A program made the position numbers and the translations under genes. Positions 45,320 to 64,000 of a DNA stretch of 64,000 bases are shown in pieces. Position 1 is the stretch's first letter. Every line of letters begins with the position of its first letter. Source of the DNA: Halichondria panicea. Lineage: Eukaryota; Porifera; Demospongiae; Suberitida; Halichondriidae. The DNA is taken from assembly GCF_963675165.1 (NCBI RefSeq), contig NC_087377.1:14256198-14320197 (forward strand), in the 5' to 3' direction. The notes beneath the pieces are model-generated. The model saw only the letters and a program-made list of their open reading frames with translations, made no database searches and was not told where the DNA came from.

Positions 45320-48300
45320 ATGTATATAACCACATTAATTGTGTTCAATTGTACCACCATACAGAAACATCTGATCCAAGGCTACATTGTCTTCATTGTA
45401 ACTGCATACTTGACAGCTCAGTCTAAAGGTGGGAAATTAAAACACCTGCACTATTGTATGCATGTAGTTGATTCTGTTGCTTCCTTTTAAAGGTACAATG
45501 CCATCAGTCTCTCTGACTGTTGAAGGAGGAGGCAGTCTGGTTGGTCAGCTCTGTCCTGGGACAATGAAAATGTTTTGCTATGGAATAGACTTGTCAATTT
45601 TACGATGGAGATACAATGGGAACATAGATATAGTAACCGTTTTTTCAGATGCCTCAGCTCCTTTTTCATTTGAGATCAATAATCCAGCATTCTTAAGTGT
45701 TGAGCTGCTATCAGTAGCACAAGATCCAGTGGATCCGAATTTCGGTAACTTTTCGTCAGAACTTGTTGTAAATGTGTCACAGTTGCAGGCAGTGAGTGTA
45801 ATGAGCATTACATGCGGAGATCCGGATACTTTCAAAATGATTCCAGTGGATGTTGAGATTATACAACAAACTGAACCTGAGAGTCCCAATGGAACTAATG
45901 TAACAGCTCTCTATGAATTTGGATCCTTGACGGATGTCATTGTTTCTTGGGAACAATTGGTGAGTTATATACCGGGAGCACATGAGGAGATGGAGCGGGT
46001 TATTATGCATAGTAGTCTATAACTACATTTGTAATGTGCTAAGTTCTCTGTACATGTGTGGCTAATAACGCGTTTGATGTAATAGTGAGTATTATTAAGG
46101 TGTATTATTAAGGTGTACGATGCAGTGTTCGCCCACGCAGTAATTATCTATAGTAGTAAATCATGCAAGCTGTCTTGACTGTATACACTAGTCGTCACTT
46201 TATATGATAGATATTGCATGCTCTTTGCCAGCAACGAGGAAAGGGGTAGGGCGACTCTCGAAACAATTTCTTGAAAACAATGAACATGCAGTCATCAAGA
46301 ACTCTTCGAGCCGTCCTCAGGAATATCATGAACTGCTGGTAGGTAACTGTTTAGTTCTGGTTAGAGTCCTGATATTTGACGACTAAAATCGGCTATGACC
46401 ACAATATGTGTTCGGTAAAGTTGCAGGGGGGTGCTAGGGGTACTCGAGCACCCCCGTATACAGCCTGTGTCAAGTACAAAACACAAAGAAATGTATCTGA
46501 TTATCCAACTGCACCCTTTCTCTTCCATATCTTGCTGCAGTTAGCTAGCTAGTAGGCAAGAAAAACGATTCAGTCTCTATAAACTGTGAGCTATTCTGGC
46601 TTAAATGTGTGAACTAGTTCTCTTTCGTAGCTTCTGTATGCAAATATAGTGCATCCAGCTTAGAGAGTAGATTACGACAAATTTGTGAGTAGCTGTACTT
46701 AAATGTAAAATATCTTTCGATTGGAACATTTCTAAGAAATGGTGTTGATACCAATTAATGTGTAGGTGAATAACCAAGCTACAAAAACGTTTCCATGGAA
46801 ACATAAGGTGGTGGGTTTGTGGTGATTAATAGAACAACAGCAAATTGTTATAGTGGGTATTAATCGGTTAGAGTAATAAAACAGTAATCTTGTACAGCTA
46901 AGGTCCTAGACTTATCACATAATTGTTCAATGGTTTAGGTATCCTGACCATCCCTTTTATGGGTCTTACATATGTTCACAGTGTCTATGATTTACTAGTT
47001 TTCAGGTACACTTTTGGTTAGAGTAATAACTTCTGAAAAATTAATAGCTTAGCTTTCAAATTTCTGTAGAGTAAGTTTACAGATATATGGGCTACATTTT
47101 GATACCAAGAACATCTTATTCCATTGCTGATATAACACTGAAAAGCTACATAATTTACTATTTTCTACTGTTTTGATGACATCAGCAGCTGCAAACCACA
47201 AACCAATGTCGCTTTAATCAACCACAAACTTAATTAAGAGTGACTGTACGCCCACTTACGTAGTTAATTAAAGTGTCATCGATTTGTGGTTAGCAGCTTG
47301 TGATGTCATCAAAACGGTAGAAAATAGTAGAATATGTAGTTTTTCAGTGATATCTCAACAATGGAATAAGCATAGAGGATGTTCTTGGTATCAAAATGTA
47401 GCCCATTTATTTGTAAACTTACCAGAGAACTTTTAAACCTAAGCTATAAAATTTTCAGAAGATATTACTCTAACCAAAAGTGTACCTAAAAACTAGTAAA
47501 TCATGAATTATACTGTGAACATAATTATGTAAGACCCATAAAGGGATGGTCAGGATACCTAAACCATTGAACAATTATGACAAAGTCTAGGACCTTAGCT
47601 GTACAAGATTACTGACTTTGTACTACGGTTGCACCAAAGATCAAAGGCTTCAGTTGTAGTTTATACTACTTATACAACCTGTCTGACCACAGCCATGGTA
47701 TATGGCATTATACCCTAGTGTATAACTGCCATATACCATGGCTTGTGGTCAAACTACATGTACAGCTAGAACTGAATACAGTATCCCACCTTTGCAACAA
47801 AATTGACACACTGTTTCAATTAAAACAATGACACACTACTCAATTCGATCGATATTAGAGCTAGAGAGAATTCAATACAAAACAGACTACTAGTCAACAT
47901 AAGAAGAGCCAAGCTCGAGCGATGAATAGTTCCAAAAAGGGAGGCAAATTTGGAAGAACTCTGTGAACGATACTGGTTTGTTTGTGTTGCTTTCTTTCAA
48001 CATTGGTTGTCACAACCTGCTTATTACATTGCTGCATGGGACCAGGAGCAGTAAGAAGGGTCCAGACTGCCAAGTGTTTATCTGGTTCCTTCACAATTCT
48101 TCAGGCAAATTCATTGCATAGCTATAGCAACAGTGACAGTAAACAGTAGTTATAAGCATATTCATTGAAGAAGCATGACAGGAAGTAGCTCTAAACATAG
48201 TAGTACAGTTCTAAACATAGTACAAGCCAGTTAAACTATGGCCTCTCGTGCTTTACACGCTCGAGTAATCAGATAAACCAACTCGACTGCGCCTCGTGGT

Positions 48301-51300
48301 TTATCAGATTACTCTCGCGTGTAAATCAAATATACCACTCGAGGCCATTGTTTAACTATAACATAACCGATTACCCACTATAACAATTTGTTTATTAATC
48401 ACCACAAACCCACCACCTTATGTTTCCATGGAAACATTTTTGAGTATGTTGTAGCTTGGTCATTCACCTACACATTAGTATCAGCACAATTTCTTAGAAA
48501 TGTTCCAATCGAAAGATATTTACATTTAAGTACAGCTACTCAGAAATTTGTGGTAATCTACTCTCTAAGCTGGATGCACTGTAGAAGATTGGGGCAAGCC
48601 CAACTAGCCAGATAAGTTAATTTGACGTCACTAATAAGAGGTGTGGCTTCCGGTCAATCAAATTTCGGCGCTGCGCGGCTAAAAATCAAAAGCGCCCTCT
48701 TTTATCTATGATAGCACCCCCTTCTTCAAAATCCTGCCTACACCCCTGCATGAAGTTGTGCTGTCTAGTTAGCGTACTGATAGCTAGCATGCACTGTATA
48801 TAATAGTTACTTATATATGCATGAGCAGTGCAACAGTAGTTAATGCACGGTTGCAAGTGCTCTATTGCCCAAGCGGAAGTTCGAGAAGCTCATGTAGCTC
48901 GAGGCAAAGCCGAGTGCTACATGATGCTTCGAGAACTTCCGCGAGGCCAATAATATCCATAGAGCATGAGCGTAAAACAGTGCATTAACTGGTTTGTAGT
49001 TTTTAGCTTCTCGCAGCTATATACCAATAGCTATCGGCTCTAGTATAGAACTAACTACTAAGTAGAATAGCAACCTTATACGAAAAGATTTAAAATTTGC
49101 TATTCCTGATTCTGGAGAGACTGCAATGGCTTTCAACGTACTGGTAAGCAAAACTAGCCTTTACTCAAGAATAAAGCATTTGTTAGCAAGATAGCATTGC
49201 TAGAAGCTTATTTTAAGAATCACTTTGCTGCATGTATACTCGCATTGCAACCATGGAGCAGTTGTAGCTATTCTATTCTAAAATTCTATGGCTTAAAAAT
49301 CAAAAATCAATTATTTTGACCACCAACCGTGCTCTAACTACCCCGGCCCAGCCATGCTCTAATGAAAACACCGCGGGTGCTGATGCCTCGGTGGAGGTGC
49401 CAAAGCTACATAACATAAAGCTACTAATAGCTAGCTTCTATACACACATTGATTATAATTATCATGATGAATATTTTTAATTTTGCTGCATGCAGAATCC
49501 AGAATCACAGGGAAACACAAAGAGTGGGTAATGATCGACGATGATTGTTGTTAATAACGATCGATGCCAAAAGTTCAAGTCTAAAATTAATGGCTGCAAG
49601 TAGCAGAGCCTTGCAGCTCTCTTCTCACTCTTGCAGCTACCAATAGCTAGCGTTCTAGTGCAGAGCTAACTACTAAGTATAGAGTAGCAACACTCGGTGA
49701 ACAAGTTTTGCTACGGACTCTTTTGAAAAGGCTGCAATGGCATTCCAAGTAAGCAAAACTAGACATAACTCGAGAACGAAACTTTATTTTGCAAATCCAC
49801 AAATACCAAGCCAAGAAAACATGACTAGAAGCCTATAGAAACTCTTACTTGCACTTCATTGATCCTTGAGCAGCTGAAACAGTCTACACAGACACACAGA
49901 CACACAAACACACTACCGTATACCTCGCTTGCGCATGCGCACCGAGGCATAACTACCAAACTGTTCCAAAAATGCCAACCACAGAATAATAGAGCACGGT
50001 CTGTGGTTACTACAGTTGTAGATCCTAGTCTATGGATTTGTTAGCATAGTTTTTCCTTTGATCTTTGTACAAAAAACTACAAAGACACATAAAGTAATAG
50101 AAACAATGTCTTTCTTTCTCAAAAAACAAAAATTCATGATAATTTATGAGCAAACACTGCATCGTAACCTTAAGTATACAATGAATAATGTAAGCAGTAC
50201 TTATTGCGCTTTAACATAATTATAATTTAGCAATGTTTGTGCATATATAGCAGGACGATATCAGAATCCGCGTAGTAAGACGCGACATCTCCTCATGTGC
50301 TCCTGGTTATGCTTAGCCTCAAATCCAGGTCAATTAAAATACGGCTTGTATCTATTGCATGGGTGATAGTACATAGCTATGTGCAAACTGAGTTCCCCAA
50401 AATCTGAAGAATTCGTTCTACGAGTAAAACCGTGGTAAAAAATTATATTGTATTTTGTCTCCTGTGAAGCTGTGGCTTATGTCCTCTAATCCATTTTCGA
50501 GAAGGCTATAGTCTGAAGCCAAAAGAGGCTCTCATCTATACCTCTATGATGGTCGTATGGTTGCAGTTGGAAGCACAAAGTCAAACACTTGCCATGCATA
50601 ATTATAGTCTGTACAGAAACCAAGTTCAAACATCCCGACCATACGACCATTCTTGAGGTAGATGAGAGCCTCTTCTGGCTTCAGACTAGTGCAAGCTTTC
50701 GCAACAACACAATAGAGGGCCACAGCTATAGCTATAGCTAAGCTTTACCCATAAGACATATGCAATGTATAGATAGTGCATGCATGCATGGCCTATGATT
50801 AATTACACATGCAATAGATACCAGGCCGTATTTTAATCGGCCGGCTATAGGTTATACTAAATCAATAAATGCTCATGTAAATGATGAATTGTAAATACTT
50901 GATATAGGAAATACGATGTCCAGACTTTCAGACCTCCTTGATCTATCAAGTCACACTGTTAGGCTCCGGTGTTGTCGCAGTAAATCCCACAAGCTGTGGA
51001 AAAGTGTGTATGACCAGCTTTCAGAATTTTTCTGGTGCTTCTGTGGAGTATAGGGTATTGCTGTATGCTGTAAATTCTATTGGGACAAGTGAAGTTGTGG
51101 AATATCCAACCACTATCGGTATGTCTGAATTACATGTACCGTATATGCTTGATCAGAGGCCGCTCTCAAATAGTATATAGCCTCCTTTGCTAGCAAAACG
51201 AGTGTTGCAAGTGTGCGCTTGCTAATGCCTCTCGCCATGTTTTTGCTTTCGCTCAAAAGTATTAGAGTGTTATAGAAGAGGTAGATAATTTGCAATGTGC

Positions 51301-54300: not shown

Positions 54301-57300
54301 TTTCTTATTGTTTTCTTAATTATCACTGGTGTCCAGCAAGGCAAGTTTTTTTAAAACAAATTGTACTTATTCTATTAAACTGTGTATTATTTCTAGACAC
54401 ATGCAGTTTGGACTGGAGGAGAACACGCAACGCATTGATCATTTCTGCCTTTCTTTTAGCTTGCTTTGGCAACATGTTTCTGGTCTGCATCCTGCTTGTC
54501 TCTTGTGTAAAGAAAAGTAAGGCAGCATCAATTCATAACAATCGATTCCATGTTTATTTTCAGATTCAAACATGATGGATGTGCATATAGATCTATTAGA
54601 ACACAGTCCAGTACTTTTCCATGCTGACCCACATAGAAAGTAATGGAACCCTAATTATAGTTGTACTATTCTCATGCATCATCATATATACAGTGATCCT
54701 GCTGACAAACAGACTGGCTATCAAAAAGAAAAATCTAAACATTGGTGGAGTAGTAGACCAGCCAATAGACAAGAAACAAATGAACTTATTGATATGCGGG
54801 ACGAGTCAAAGGTTGGTACAGCAAATAGTGAATCATCGGCTTTTCTAATCAATAAAGGAGGTCACGAGTCCACAACTCAATCCAAGTGCACAGACTCTTC
54901 TGGCCGCCTCAAATTTAAAAGGATCAAAAACTCTAATCCTGCAGTTGTTGTTCCCGGTGTCCTACCTGCTACCACACTATCTAGGGTAAAAATATAACCA
55001 TTCATGTCCTTAAGTTGTACTATGTTCGTAACTGTATGTTTGCTTGCAGGCCGACCAACACTTGTCCAATGATGCAAAGCCACAAACTGACGAAGCAACG
55101 TACAACAGTTCTGAAACCAGCAATGCACCACTCTCCAAGGCAGTGCAAGATAAAGACGCAAAGCAGGGACGCAAGTACAGATTCTCTTTGGGGCCTCTCA
55201 AGTTTGGAAGGAGCGAAGATACTACTGGTGCTCCTGTGACCTCACCGGTAGTTCCCCCTGGACAAACGGACCTGCCAGATGAGGTAAATCGCAGCCACTT
55301 AATTATGCCTCGAGGCGTAGCCGCACGAGGGATACAGTAAAGCTGGCTGTGTGTTGTGTGTGTATTCCAGCTGTAACTACTCAACGGTTGCAATGCGACG
55401 AAAACTCACAGCTTCTATAGGCTTCTATAGCCACGTTCTCGTGGATTTTGATTCGTGGATTAGCAAACTAAAGCTTCTTTATTGAGTTATTGCTAGTTTG
55501 ACTCACATTGATTGCTGTTGCAGTCTCTTCAGACTCTTTCATAGCATCATTTGTTCGCACAAAATTTCTAAACTAAACTTAACCGCTAGCTTTTTAGCTA
55601 CAAGAGCTGCTAAATCAGCTCGCTATTTTAAATTATTAGCCAATAATTTTGTGAACTTGACCTCTTGCAGACACACCCCTTATTCCAGTGGATCTACTGC
55701 GCATGCACGCTCATCCCCACGTATGAGACAATCCATTTTGAACCCCAGTCCTTGGCAGCTAAGCCACAAAACACTATTATAAATGCATGTACACAAGTCT
55801 TTTCTTCTCAGTTATAACGAGTGTTGCAAGCGTGCGCTTGCTAATGCCTCTCGCCATGTTTTTGCTTTCGCTCAAAAGTATTAGAGTGTTATAGAAGAGG
55901 TAAATAATTTGCAATGTGCTTTGATTGTTTCACAAGAAAGGGGCATCCACAGTTAATATATATAGTGTATACTGATCGTCTTAAATGCAGGGGCGGAGGA
56001 AGTGGTCCGGCAGGTCCGGCAACTGCCTGACCAATATTGAATCAAACCTAGCTATAATTATAGACTCTAGCTAACTTATAGTCAACTACCAGCTAGAGGC
56101 CGAGGATAAGCTAGCTAGCTAGCTAGCTACGATCGAACTCTATTCCAGTTCAATGTTACATGTTTAATGTTCTATTCTAATTATACGTAGATCTAATAGT
56201 GGGAGGACCTAGATCCAATAATAATTATTGGGCGGAGTCCAGCCTAACCAGGTATGATACAGAGGTATGATAATGCAAGTTCAAAGGTCAAATTTAGTAT
56301 ACATTTTTTCGCAGCTAGTAGGGCCCTATTTTTGCCTAACCAATGCCATTAAACTTCCTCCACCCCTGAAATGGCCTGTAGCCAAACAGTGGGAGCAAAT
56401 CTTTGTCAAAGGCATATAGTCATGCAGTAATCTGTGAGATAAGTACAATTCAATCACAGAATTAAATCAACGACACTGAAGCAACTGCATGTTATTTAAA
56501 TGGCCTGTAGCCAAACAATGCAAAGGCACAGAGTAAGAGAGAATTTAAGCACAGACAGTAGTATATCACAGACAGTATAGTATATATAAACAAGCAGAAC
56601 GTGTGTATCTATCTATATTAGTACTGAGAAGAAAAGACTTGTGTAAATGTATCTATTGTTATCAGACTTGTGTACATGAATATTGTTATCTAGTCTATAC
56701 GGTATCTTTTGTTTTGTGGCTTACCGGTATACCAGGACCTCAAGAAAAAGAAGTATGTTGATTCTGCTACTGGATTCTCTAACATGTGGGGATGAGCGCG
56801 CATGCGCATTGCATCCACAGGAATAATTAAAGGGTGTGTCCAAAGAGATCAAGTTCACAATGGCTACTAGAGCTAGCAGTTTTAACAGATCTTTTCTGAC
56901 TCTTGTAGCTAACAAAAAGCTAACGCTTTATAGTGCAAGGCTAACTCATGTGTTGAATAGAAAGTTTTTGCGAACAGATGATGATTCTGAAGAGACTGCA
57001 ACAGCCTTCAATGTGAGTCAAACTAGCCATAACTCGAGAAAGAACGTTTAGTTTGCTAATCCACGAATCAAAATCCAAGAGAATGCCTTGAGGCAGAATT
57101 ATAGATAAGATATTATACTTTCTTTGTATGAAATTCAAATGCAAATTGTTAACGTAAAATTCATTTTAGAAAATACTTGTCAAATATGGTGCAATCTAAT
57201 TGGTTACGTGGAGGTCTTTTATTTCTCATAGATACCTCTCAGACATTCAGAGGTACAATAATACTGAATTGACTAATTTTTAAGCATGCATGTACCGTAT

Positions 57301-60300: not shown

Positions 60301-63300
60301 GATCACTTGAGCTGTAAATGTGTAGGCTATCTCGAATAAAGGCCGCGTGTAGTTAGCTAGCTGGCAACGTGCAAGTTTCTTAGCTTTTACTCGCTTTCAT
60401 TCGACAACAAAGCTTTAACATCGAAATCTACCACAGTAAAACTAATAACTTGTTGTGTGAAGGCTATCCATGCTGTAAACGCAGTGCTGTGGCATCCAGG
60501 TGAGTAGATTCACATATTATTACAAACAGACAAACAAACAAACCAAACGACTACTATACCGTGGCCGCCCATGCGCACCTCGGGTAATAGCATTAGTGTA
60601 TTTACTGTTCATAGGTACTCTAGTACATGGATCAATGCTTGCATGCTTTAATTCTTTTGTTGAGGCTTGCTGAGGCTGCTGAGGAAGATATTCCATGTGT
60701 CGTACTTGAATTCTTCATCACTTGTAGCAATACTCTGACTTGACCACACCGACTATTATCTTTTATACATGAAAGGTAATGTAGACACTACTAGATATAT
60801 TGAAGTGTAAATGGCTCCTTCCATAGCTACTTCTTGTCTGGAATCTCCTCGCCCGGCTTTAGAGATATCTCTTCAATTCAATTTAGGTTGCTAGGCAACC
60901 AAAACACATTCAATATGAATAATGGACAAATATTTTCTGGCTTTAATTTTCACAACACTATATCTAACATTTTTAGGGGATTTCTTAGTACATGAGGCAT
61001 ACAGTGAAAATTAATCCGACAAATGGGCTTCCTCTTATTATACATTTAGAACAGTATATTGAATGTATACAGTTCTTAAAATGATGGCATAATGGGTTAA
61101 TTCTTTTGACAAGTGCATCAGGGTTTCATCTATTGGATAAAAAGTTTAGGGTTATGCGTACTGCAAAATGCTAAACCTACTTTTGTTGAGCACACCCCCT
61201 GTTACAAGCTAATGCATCACAGTAGATTTATAATTTATAATACCGTTAGCTGGAAATTTTCGTGAGGTGCAAAATTTCGCGTTTTTTGAGAGCAGAGCAG
61301 TTTACGCGAAAATTAAAACCGGTATAAACTCTCATGCATCGGTATTTCACATGCAAAGCTATTGGTGGGTGTGGTTTCCTGGCATTGAAACGTGAATATT
61401 AGAACCTAAAGCTGAGCATTTTGGGGAAGGGTCACCCCTGCCCCCCCCCCCCCCCCCCGATGCATTAGATATGAAACCATTATAATTATGCTGAATTTGC
61501 GGCAGTATACTCAAACCAATTGTATTGTTAACATTATAGAGTTCTATTAACCGACCTAAAGAGGAGACAGAACTTGTTAAGCCACAAACTAATGAAGCAA
61601 CCTACAACGGTACTGAAACCAGCAATGCACCACCACTCTCCAAGGCAGTGCAGGATAAAGACGGAAAGCAGGAACCCAAGTATAGGTTCTCTTTGGGGCC
61701 TCTCAAGTTTGGAAAGAGTGGAGATACTACTCCAATTGGTGGTGCTCCACCGGTAGTTCCCCCTGGACAGACATACCTACCAGCTGGGGTAAGTGGCCAA
61801 TATACTGCGATTGGTAGGCCCTCATTATGCTGGTAAGTCGGTTTGATACAATTCTCTCCTTAACTTCCTCCCTTACATTTAGAATGACAATACAACAAGA
61901 AAACTATAAAATATTAATGTCCAATGCCTTGGGTTAATTTTTTGACCAGCATAATAATCGACTGAATTTGAGGCAGTATACTCAAAAGCATAATTGGAAG
62001 AAAAAAGAACATAATGTAGTTTTCCAGGGTCGATTGTTCAATATTATTTTATCGTTTTAGAGTAACCGACCTGACGAGGAGAATGGTCAAACAGAACTTG
62101 TGAAGCCACAAACTGACGAAGCAACCTACAACAGTTCTGAAACCAGCAATGCACCACCATTCTCCGAGGCAATGCAAGATAAAGACGCAAAGCAGGAACC
62201 CAAGTACAGATTCTCTTTGGGGCCTCTCAAGTTTGGAAGGAGTGAAGATACTACTCCTATTAATTGTGCTCCTGTGACCTCACCGGTAGTTACCCTTGGA
62301 CAGACGGACCTGCCAGCTGGGGTAAGTAACCAATATTTTGCGATTGGTAAATTATTATTGTTTCAGAATTCTATTAACCGACCTGACGAGAAGAATGGTC
62401 AAACAGAAGTTGTGAAGCCACAAACTGACGAAACAACCTACAACAGTTCTGAAACCGGCAATGCACCACCATTCTCCGAGGCAGTGCAAGATAAAGACGC
62501 AAAGCAGGAACCCAAGTACAGATTCTCTTTGGGGCCTCTCAAGTTTGGAAGGAGTGAAGATACTACTCCTATTGGTTGTGCTCCTGTGACCTCACCGGTA
62601 GTTACCCCTGGACAGACGGACCTGCCAGCTGGGGTAAGTAACCAATATTTTGCGATTGGTAAATTATTATTGTTTCAGAATTCTATTAACCGACCTGACG
62701 AGAAGAATGGTCAAACAGAAGTTGTGAAGCCACAAACTGACGAAGCAACCTACAACAGTTCTGAAACCAGCAATGCACCACCATTCTCCGAGGCAGTGCA
62801 AGATAAAGACTCAAAGCAGGAACCCAAGTACAGATTCTCTTTGGGGCCTCTCAAGTTTGGAAGGAGTGAAGATACTACTCCTATTGGTTGTGCTCCTGTG
62901 ACCTCACCGGTAGTTACCCCTGGACAGACGGACCTGCCAGCTGGGGTAAGTAACCAATATTTTGCGATTGGTAAATTATTATTGTTTCAGAATTCTATTA
63001 ACCGACCTGACGAGAAGAATGGTCAAACAGAAGTTGTGAAGCCACAAACTGACGAAGCAACCTACAACAGTTCTGAAACCAGCAATGCACCACCATTCTC
63101 CGAGGCAGTGCAAGATAAAGACTCAAAGCAGGAACCCAAGTACAGATTCTCTTTGGGGCCTCTCAAGTTTGGAAGGAGTGAAGATACTACTCCTATTGAT
63201 TGTGCTCCTGTGACCTCACCGGTAGTTACCCTTGGACAGACGGACCTGCCAGCTGGGGTAAGTAACCAATATTTTGCGATTGGTAAATTATTATTGTTTC

Positions 63301-64000
63301 AGAATTCTATTAACCGACCTGACGAGAAGAATGGTCAAACAGAAGTTGTGAAGCCACAAACTGACGAAGCAACCTACAACAGTTCTGAAACCGGCAATGC
63401 ACCACCATTCTCCGAGGCAGTGCAAGATAAAGATGCAAAGCAGGAACCCAAGTACAGATTCTCTTTGGGGCCTCTCAAGTTTGGAAGGAGTGAAGATACT
63501 ACTCCTATTGGTTGTGCTCCTGTGACCTCACCGGTAGTTACCCCTGGACAGACGGACCTGCCAGCTGGGGTAAGTAACCAATATTTTGCGATTGGTAAAT
63601 TATTATTGTTTCAGAATTCTATTAACCGACCTGACGAGAAGAATCGTCAAACAGAAGTTGTGAAGCCACAAACTGACGAAGCAACCTACAGCAGTTCTGA
63701 AACCGGCAATGCACCACCATTCTCCGAGGCAATGCAAGATAAAGACGCAAAGCAGGAACCCAAGTACAGATTCTCTTTGGGGCCTCTCAAGTTTGGAAGG
63801 AGTGAAGATACTACTCCTATTGATTGTGCTCCTGTGACCTCACCGGTAGTTACCCTTGGACAGACGGACCTGCCAGCTGGGGTAAGTAACCAATATTTTG
63901 CGATTGGTAAATTATTATTGTTTCAGAATTCTATTAACCGACCTGACGAGAAGAATGGTCAAACAGAAGTTGTGAAGCCACAAACTGACGAAGCAACCTA
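45320..64000 (+). CDS. Gene E: three-pass receptor with tandem-exon tail, 3' end outside
   Basis: Exons: 45320..45428, 45493..45959, 50908..51118, 53741..54019, 54083..54163, 54215..54340, 54397..54516, 54564..54639, 54694..54985, 55050..55283, 61540..61788, 62061..62321, 62367..62633, 62679..62945, 62991..63257, 63303..63569, 63615..63881, 63927..>64000. All are in phase, giving at least 1300 residues. The start has a signal-like helix (GYIVFIVTAYLTAQS). An Ig-like domain (SVSLTVEGGGSLVGQLCPGT, LRWRYNGN, SITCGDP) is followed by an FN3 module (VSWEQL|EIRCPDF) and a second beta domain (SSFYFTPTFLSND). Three membrane helices follow (LTLTILALILVAAFII, VASFLGLLSLVFLIVFLII, LIISAFLLACFGNMFLVCIL). 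The tail is a repeated unit (DEATYNSSET, KYRFSLGPLKFG). One intron is GC-AG (54341-54396). Introns of 4.9, 2.6 and 6.3 kb are filled with transposons. Confidence 0.82.
45960..46619. other. Gene E intron 2, first part
   Basis: Intronic, with gtgagt donor at 45960. No extra exon is supported. Contains a MITE-end-like phrase (gggggtgctaggggtactcg) near 46425. Confidence 0.4.
46620..48600. repeat. Large inverted repeat (arms about 600 bp) split by an insertion
   Basis: The outer arms 46620-46880 and 48364-48600 are complements (shared ccaccttatgtttccatgga). The inner arms 46882-47225 and about 47270-47614 are complements (shared aggtcctagac, gatggtcaggatacctaaac). On the left the two arms are contiguous; on the right they are separated by 47615-48363. 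The original structure was thus one fold-back of about 1.2 kb, later broken by another element. Confidence 0.85.
47615..48363. mobile_element. Composite repeat, copy 2 (inverted relative to 38690-41390)
   Basis: Matches the outer parts of 38690-41390 in opposite orientation, including both hairpins (ccatggtatatggcat... at 47693-47745 and aactatggcctctcgtgctt at 48233). It lacks the 1.7-kb middle, so it represents the intact, shorter state of the element. It is inserted in the right arm of the larger fold-back. Confidence 0.8.
48838..48992. repeat. Hairpin repeat
   Basis: gttaatgcacggttgcaagt at the left pairs with aacagtgcattaac at the right, and gcggaagttcgagaagc pairs with gcttcgagaacttccgc around a short centre. 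It resembles the hairpin of the 38690 family in layout but not in sequence. Confidence 0.75.
49040..49300 (+). repeat. Dispersed exon-bearing repeat, copy 2
   Basis: Diverged copy with ctagtatagaactaactact, gattctggagagactgcaat, a gtaagcaaaactagcc junction and cgcattgcaaccatggagca. The terminal cacaga run is missing. Confidence 0.65.
49620..49965 (+). repeat. Dispersed exon-bearing repeat, copy 3
   Basis: Close match to 32430-32755: ctcttgcagctaccaatagc, aatggcattccaagtaagca, aatccacaaataccaag, a cacagacacacaaacacact run and cctcgcttgcgcatgcgcac. Confidence 0.75.
50315..50845. repeat. Element with 'aattaaaatacgg' ends and inner inverted pair
   Basis: The ends cctcaaatccaggtcaatta (50325) and gccgtattttaatcggcc (50824) are inverted and related to the arms of the palindrome at 26360-26423. 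Inside, gtctgaagccaaaagaggct (50511) pairs with agcctcttctggcttcagac (50668-50687), a second nested hairpin element. Confidence 0.6.
51180..51560. repeat. Intronic repeat shared with 55815-56580
   Basis: gcgcttgctaatgcctctcg, then tgctttcgctcaaaagtatt, then aggtcctgtagcc-like blocks occur in the same order at 55830 and on. This piece lies directly upstream of exon-bearing repeat copies at both places, so the two together form one larger family. Confidence 0.65.
51590..52050 (+). repeat. Dispersed exon-bearing repeat, copy 4
   Basis: Starts with an ATG block (atggctactaaaatagctag at 51683) whose frame is broken here. Then gaagagactgcaacagcctt leads into gtgagtcaaactagcc, aatccacgaatcaaaatcca, and a cacagacacacacacagtca run. 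Lies in gene E intron 3. Confidence 0.75.
52616..53340 (-). mobile_element. Pogo/Tigger-like DNA transposon fragment
   Basis: At 52616 the sequence tacagtagaacctcgattat is a TA-flanked end typical of pogo-type elements. On the minus strand, 53301-53160 encodes SADDSTADEF and CPDQIFNCDEM. The block PDQIFN-x-DE is the region of the first catalytic Asp in DDE_1 transposases. The rest of the catalytic domain and the other end are missing. Confidence 0.65.
55310..55765 (-). repeat. Dispersed exon-bearing repeat, copy 5 (inverted)
   Basis: Inverse order of the family: gcctcgaggcg... ctttactgtatccctcg, gtgtgtgttgtgtgt, ttcgtggattagcaaac, gactcacattgattgctgttgcag, then a broken version of the ATG block. 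Begins about 25 bp after gene E exon 10 (55283). Confidence 0.7.
55988..56368. mobile_element. MITE with 5-bp target duplication
   Basis: A 381-bp element with ends caggggcggaggaagt and acttcctccacccctg. It is flanked by aaatg at 55983-55987 and 56369-56373. It is inserted inside the repeat shared with 51180-51560, so it is younger than that repeat. A relative is at 59878-60145. Confidence 0.85.
56720..57090 (+). repeat. Dispersed exon-bearing repeat, copy 6 (best open frame)
   Basis: From the ATG at 56860 this copy has an unbroken frame of 51 codons (MATRASSFNRSFLTLVANKK, then FLRTDDDSEETATAFN) up to a gtgagt donor at about 57013. It looks like a first exon carried by the repeat. Downstream it keeps aatccacgaatcaaaatcca but not the cacaga run. 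Whether it is transcribed cannot be told. Confidence 0.65.
58000..58600 (-). mobile_element. Crypton-type tyrosine recombinase fragment
   Basis: On the minus strand, DPRWSLENAVEALLSTSG-type sequence near 58470 is followed by SAGVGSVYKQAELLCLEEEE and LLWDKKKILGDHSADTLLN. After a frame change come NGLYFALRSGGEHRQLR and NERSFLRYREDI. The ALRSGGEHR block corresponds to the first catalytic Arg region in the Crypton-derived recombinase-like family (DUF3504/KIAA1958-type) as I recall it. Only part of the catalytic domain is present. Lies in the 6.3-kb intron of gene E. Confidence 0.65.
59083..59506. mobile_element. MITE with about 40-bp inverted ends
   Basis: tatgtgacaggctctgggaa...gactattggagcaga at 59083 pairs with its near-complement ending cacata at 59506. 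The interior is non-coding. Intronic to gene E. Confidence 0.85.
59878..60145. mobile_element. MITE related to 55988-56368
   Basis: The left end cagtggcgtaggagcagggg and internal tgcctgaccaatattt match the family at 55988. The right part tgcctgaccaatgcaaaatt followed by gcttcctacacctctg closes it. No target duplication is certain. Confidence 0.65.
60146..61539. other. Gene E intron, 3' part before the exon array
   Basis: Non-coding. A small inverted element with ends accgttagctggaaattttc and aaaattaaaaccggta lies at 61241-61324. A run of about 19 C residues lies at 61440-61459, a probable assembly risk. Confidence 0.45.
61540..64000 (+). repeat. Tandem exon array of gene E (8 units here, plus 55050)
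   Basis: Units start at 61540, 62061, 62367, 62679, 62991, 63303, 63615 and 63927, the last cut by the window end. From 62367 on the spacing is exactly 312 bp: a 267-nt exon (89 codons) plus a 45-nt intron gtaagtaacc...ttgtttcag. Copies differ by only a few bases each. The older units at 55050, 61540 and 62061 are shorter (234, 249, 261 nt), more diverged and separated by longer introns. All unit exons are phase 0-0, so any number can be spliced without breaking the frame. Confidence 0.95.

Follow-up and report, generated by a model that had tools for sequence, protein, structure and literature searches.

The window, that is, the whole stretch of 64,000 nt analysed here (C1:14256198-14320197 in a genome of 131.5 Mb and 39 contigs), carries a receptor gene whose tail contains repeated copies of one exon module and continues beyond the right window edge. 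The exons of this gene and the tandem array in its tail were placed as follows:

45501 to 45860, + strand: core of the first ectodomain exon, Ig-like, belonging to a family of 81 matches, with conserved C/W/L/C and a beta-rich model
50908 to 51150, + strand: second ectodomain exon (ends approximate), 70.7% identical over 75 aa to the counterpart exon of receptor L011
53740 to 54019, + strand: third ectodomain exon (ends approximate), 68.9% identical over 103 aa to the counterpart exon of L011
54400 to 54516, + strand: transmembrane exon (start approximate), ALIISAFLLACFGNMFLVCILLVSCVKKS, 68% identical over 47 aa to L011, donor GTAAGG
54564 to 54639, + strand: proposed juxtamembrane exon 1, from splice sites and frame as read
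54694 to 54985, + strand: juxtamembrane exon 2, with one match in the genome search, here only
55050 to 55283, + strand: module unit 0, diverged, 78 codons
61540 to 61788, + strand: module unit A, diverged, 83 codons
62061 to 62321, + strand: array exon 1, 87 codons, with a B-like 5′ end and an array-like 3′ part
62322 to 62366, + strand: 45-nt intron, first of six identical ones, beginning with GTAAGT and ending with TTTCAG
62367 to 62633, + strand: array exon 2, 89 codons
62679 to 62945, + strand: array exon 3, 89 codons
62991 to 63257, + strand: array exon 4, 89 codons
63303 to 63569, + strand: array exon 5, 89 codons
63615 to 63881, + strand: array exon 6, 89 codons
63927 to 64000, + strand: array exon 7, cut by the window edge, running to C1:14320390 and followed by a B-type donor (GTAAATCGCAG)

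Tandem Repeats Finder detected a head-to-tail array at 62063-64000 with a period of 312, 6.2 copies, 98% matches and a score of 3736. The array spans approximately 2.1 kb and consists of seven near-identical exons, which start at the positions listed above, from 62061 to 63927. The first exon is 261 nt long (87 codons), the next five are complete and 267 nt long (89 codons each), and the seventh, also of 89 codons, ends 193 bases beyond the window edge (L005:290, that is, C1:14320390). They are separated by six letter-identical introns of 45 nt, located at 62322, 62634, 62946, 63258, 63570, and 63882. Units 1-6 differ pairwise at 2-9 of 306 positions (0.7-2.9%), and the seven exons at 2-13 of 261 positions, so that all seven are distinct. 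A previous sequence-only reading of the window had described five complete units and one cut unit, regularly spaced by 312 bp with 45-nt introns and differing by about 1-3%. The spacing and the divergence agree with the measured values, and the count is right for the 89-codon exons, but the 87-codon exon at 62061 raises the number to seven. The module exons were also found to be symmetric (phase 0-0), as that reading had claimed, with the splice sites placed by reading the sequence. Thus, the existence and the tandem anatomy of the array are confirmed. Diverged units flank it on both sides: unit 0 and unit A lie 5′ of the array, while unit C (C1:14320724-14320975) and a partial unit (14321837-14321983) lie 3′ of it.

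The introns proposed after the transmembrane exon and the two juxtamembrane exons are 47, 54, and 64 nt long, and a putative intron of 6256 nt, across which the array would be joined to the receptor, separates unit 0 (ending at 55283) from unit A (starting at 61540). Spliced as proposed, the tail is open for 1012 codons from 54694 through every unit, including the complete and partial ones 3′ of the array. Since a transmembrane exon followed by module exons was found at both loci that carry the module (see below), the assignment of the array to a receptor tail, made in the earlier reading, is supported. A candidate last exon of the gene lies at L005:2816-2956 (C1:14322916-14323056). Similar fragments occur at 13 other places on C1, C2, C3, C7, C8, C11, and C15, several of them with stops, therefore this candidate may be a dispersed fragment. 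A suspected likeness of this exon to the SEFIR domain was dropped, as the SEFIR search matched two places, on C4 and C9, and not this exon.

The constraint acting on the module was estimated from nine older units (W2-W6 of the array and the partial unit were left out) as a descriptive comparison, in which dependent pairs were pooled without a significance test. In each of the four segments of the module, pS was 0.17-0.19, while pN was lowest, at 0.053, in a core of 22 codons (KQEPKYRFSLGPLKFGRSEDTT). It amounted to 0.079 for the C-terminal part, 0.119 for the segment around YNSSE, and 0.186 for the remainder, and the resulting pN/pS is 0.29 for the core versus 1.06 for the remainder. The fewest amino-acid changes of the module fall in the core KYRFSLGPLKFG. 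The comparison of pN with pS by segment thus indicates that the module is coding and that the core is its most protected part. The module is predicted to be disordered (pLDDT 63.1 and pTM 0.13 of the model). The PDB sequence search with the module returned 0 matches, no usable Pfam match was obtained for the ectodomain exons, the module, or the candidate last exon, and none of the 14 complete module units of the two loci contains the Yxx[LIV] motif. The signalling role given to the modules in the earlier reading thus finds no support in known motifs or domains. The module would most likely act as a linear docking module, the number of which scales the response.

The newest units do not speak for function in the young array. 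Among units 2-6, pN (0.020) exceeds pS (0.006), thus the young array shows no evidence of being constrained, although these values come from few changes, namely nine variable sites, which are too few to separate relaxed from positive selection. The array may therefore be seen as a neutral by-product, in which exchange alters the number of units and this number has no effect on the receptor, the more so as the other locus manages with four units. Nevertheless, none of the 14 complete units at the two loci contains a stop or a frameshift, and the core has been kept among the older units at the low pN/pS given above. We regard neutrality as a real possibility, though a somewhat doubtful one, and the docking function as the preferred reading.

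The ectodomain of the window gene belongs to a large family. The genome search with the ectodomain exon gave 81 matches, 80 of which are on C1, and 71 of them, on both strands, are crowded into 0.65 Mb (C1:13.88-14.54 Mb) that includes the window. Counting fragments, these 71 matches represent 67 places more than 1.5 kb apart, and some of them contain stops and are likely broken copies; one of the segments examined, L008, holds 200 N. Two near-identical family members, L041 (C1:11667639) and L042 (C1:12127829), lie outside the main cluster, approximately 460 kb from each other. The alignment (A1) and the tree were made from 48 of the 81 matches, after removal of stop-containing rows, short fragments, and a number of near-duplicates. 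In the 48 aligned rows C26, W36, L69, L88, and C105 are invariant. The model of the Ig-like exon is mostly beta (pLDDT 78.9), and its best structural matches come mostly from Ig domains, although with a Z of about 6 they are weak; the Foldseek search with this exon gave 0 matches at E <= 0.001. Transmembrane exons were read in the window gene, L006, L007, and L011. A clustered family of this kind fits a recognition-type setting, although allorecognition is not proven thereby.

The search of the genome with the module, in which the tool scores the best candidates only, returned 15 matches, all at two loci. The second locus is the receptor L006, located 190 kb upstream of the window gene, in which the ectodomain exons are followed by a transmembrane exon, the donor of which is in phase 0, and then by the module exons A, B, C, and D. 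It contains one 45-nt intron, compared with the seven array exons and six such introns of the window gene. The similarity of the two tails, which falls into blocks between L006:6031 and 13244 (counted from C1:14120001) and 61244-69862 in extended window coordinates, covers introns and the 3′ flank and is not limited to exons.

The heads of the two receptors are distant from each other. In the tree of 48 rows, the window receptor falls into a clade of six rows (100/100), while L006 is the sister of L007 (100/99) within a five-row clade (100/96). Between the window gene and L006, dS is saturated in the ectodomain (2.66, ranging from 1.18 to unbounded) but only 0.118 (0.08-0.17) in the tail. For comparison, the ectodomain dS is 0.109 (0.05-0.19) between L006 and L007 and 0.589 (0.36-0.93) between the window gene and L011. 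L007 (C1:14534801-14542800), the Ig-like exon of which is 96% identical to that of L006, matches L006 at 86% through the transmembrane exon, where the similarity ends, so that no match exists in the tail, and the genome search found no module in L007. The low tail dS, set against saturated ectodomains in separate clades, indicates that the tail most likely moved between receptors and suggests that it is young relative to the heads. The simplest and most likely account would be that a tail segment was transferred or exchanged between old receptors and the array then grew in one of them.

A tail ancestral to both clades, lost elsewhere and kept young-looking by gene conversion between its two remaining copies, would give a similar picture. 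Conversion inside the array is indeed likely, and the 45-nt intron is identical between the loci together with its neighbouring letters. However, the tail would have to have been lost from L007, L011, and the remaining members of both clades, and the likeness of the two tails also includes their introns and 3′ flank. Ancestry with losses therefore seems unlikely to us, and transfer of the tail is the reading retained in the following.

The 45-nt intron is identical in seven copies across both loci. Of its first 28 letters, 24 agree with the 5′ end of the intron that follows unit A at the second locus, and its 3′ end agrees with that of the intron preceding unit C. Both of these introns are longer (291 and 359 nt, respectively), and both carry CGATTG, the hexamer found at the join of the two halves. 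The 45-nt intron thus looks like a shrunken form of longer tail introns, as left by deletion or by exchange between two introns, and this match supports splicing. Short introns are ordinary in this genome, since three introns read in two CCT genes are 54, 55, and 56 nt long. On C6, two equally scoring matches to the TCP-1 family (G000:C6:3184448-3185173 and C6:3215587-3216312) lie 31 kb apart, both within open frames of 1021 codons, and probably represent a recent duplication. Selection on the 45-nt intron, which its identity had first suggested, was dropped as an idea, because the identity continues into the neighbouring exon letters and conversion explains it.

As the 45-nt intron consists of 15 stop-free codons, the seven units can also be read as a single frame of 722 codons. 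If left unspliced, the 45 nt would contribute the sequence YFAI and with it the type of Yxx[LIV] motif absent from the spliced modules. Hence, units 1-7 might form one long exon with a repeat of 104 residues, in which case the tail would contain an ordinary coding minisatellite and the 45-nt stretches would not be introns. The frame running through all six stretches, their length divisible by three, and their identity in seven copies at two loci are consistent with this view. Both of their ends, however, match longer introns of the same tail and are canonical (GTAAGT and TTTCAG), introns of comparable size are proposed elsewhere in the gene and were read in the CCT genes, and the identity, which reaches the adjacent exon letters, may reflect conversion alone. 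A single long exon is accordingly quite improbable, and the 45-nt stretches are treated here as introns.

The position and the internal variation of the array are informative about its growth. When units B and D from the second locus are taken as the reference, array unit 1 is preceded by a B-type intron and shows B letters near its 5′ end followed by array letters, while unit 7 has an array-like beginning and is followed by a B-type intron, thus the array stands in place of exon B. At two-state sites, where each state is shared by at least two units, all four combinations were observed in 5 of 10 pairs, although the test rests on five sites and recurrent mutation could be the source of some of these pairs. 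The homogeneous centre, the diverged flanks on both sides, and the shuffled variants are the pattern expected from repeated unequal exchange or conversion, and this mode of growth is thereby supported. The recent homogenisation or expansion proposed in the earlier reading is in line with the shuffling of variants inside a near-identical array, as unequal exchange predicts. The old-to-new gradient seen there was correct in contrasting the near-identical centre with the diverged units at 55050 and 61540, but diverged units lie on both sides, so the gradient is not one-way. Short repeats as similar as these can easily be collapsed or falsely expanded in an assembly, but an artefact that hides a different unit number, or just one or two units, is highly improbable, given that each of the seven exons differs from the others, that the array spans about 2.1 kb, and that the 131-Mb assembly is made of 39 contigs with no N in L001-L007 or the window.

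Considering these results, we propose that non-allelic recombination, acting behind the transmembrane exon, most likely carried the tail from one receptor to another. An intron of this tail would then have shrunk to 45 nt, combining the start of one ancestral intron with the end of another and leaving CGATTG at the join. In the window gene, the exon and its 45-nt intron would have become a unit of 312 bp, from which the seven array exons arose, unequal exchange or conversion keeping them homogeneous. These three steps are supported by the sequence. With the introns removed and all units used, a single tail would contain ten complete modules and one partial module. If each module is a docking site centred on KYRFSLGPLKFG, the length of the array would set the number of sites, and changes in length by whole units would keep the frame with or without removal of the 45 nt. 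We consider this account probable as a whole, that is, the tail of a single-pass receptor from a clustered family, containing a repeated symmetric-exon module with docking sites, that moved, underwent intron shrinkage, and expanded into an array.

Studies of receptor diversity usually concentrate on the recognition head. In this family, the heads are many and their clades old, while one tail is young, seems to have passed from one head to another, and grew through the repetition of an exon. The origin of the array may lie in the shrinking of an intron to near-minimal size, by which a compact exon-intron unit repeatable in frame would have been formed. The number of units could differ between individuals, and since the 312-bp units are easy to count, they could serve as a marker in studies of whether signalling capacity at a recognition-type cluster varies from one individual to another. 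A far more speculative and on the whole improbable extension is that the length of the tail varies heritably within a cluster of recognition genes, where a mobile tail is placed on different heads and the exon count, changed by unequal exchange, sets the number of docking sites; the 45-nt intron may also be a frame-neutral switch, if its retention inserted VSNQYFAIGKLLLFQ with YFAI between modules.

Several features of the locus have counterparts in known systems. In Tetrahymena LRR genes, exon arrays were attributed by the authors to unequal crossing over (PMC6564038). As in the window array, exons of equal length stand there head to tail with a single intron phase, and the homogenised, shuffled variants in equal-length in-phase exons, which mark arrays formed by unequal exchange, were found here too. 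The Tetrahymena arrays, however, are in ciliate LRR genes with phase-2 introns of about 257 bp (T. thermophila; PMC6564038), whereas the present one lies in an animal receptor tail, has phase-0 introns of 45 nt, and comprises seven units at one locus.

The allorecognition complex of Hydractinia contains 40 Alr and Alr-like genes (PMC11876637), and, like the 71 ectodomain matches in 0.65 Mb described here, it unites many related membrane receptors on one chromosome; a cluster of related single-pass receptors is thus common to both. ITIM/ITAM-type motifs were reported for the Hydractinia candidate genes (PMC12065747), in contrast to the absence of Yxx[LIV] from all 14 complete module units. Unlike in the window gene, an exon array in the tail was not seen in the available text on Hydractinia Alr genes (PMC11876637, PMC12065747). 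Likewise, the accessible open-licence literature of PubMed Central yielded no tail-exon array like that of the window gene, which is weak evidence of absence, and no case in which a tail that is young and apparently mobile also carries compact symmetric exons in a growing array, although such a case may have been reported.

The vertebrate paired receptors of the FcR/KIR type combine similar ectodomains with different tails, from which the authors inferred domain shuffling (PMC2413239). The same relation of close ectodomains and different tails was found here between L006 and L007, which share 96% identity in the Ig-like exon, the module being present in L006 only. As differences from the FcR/KIR families, no pair of activating and inhibitory motifs was identified here, and the tail described here is shared by receptors with distant ectodomains and carries an exon array.
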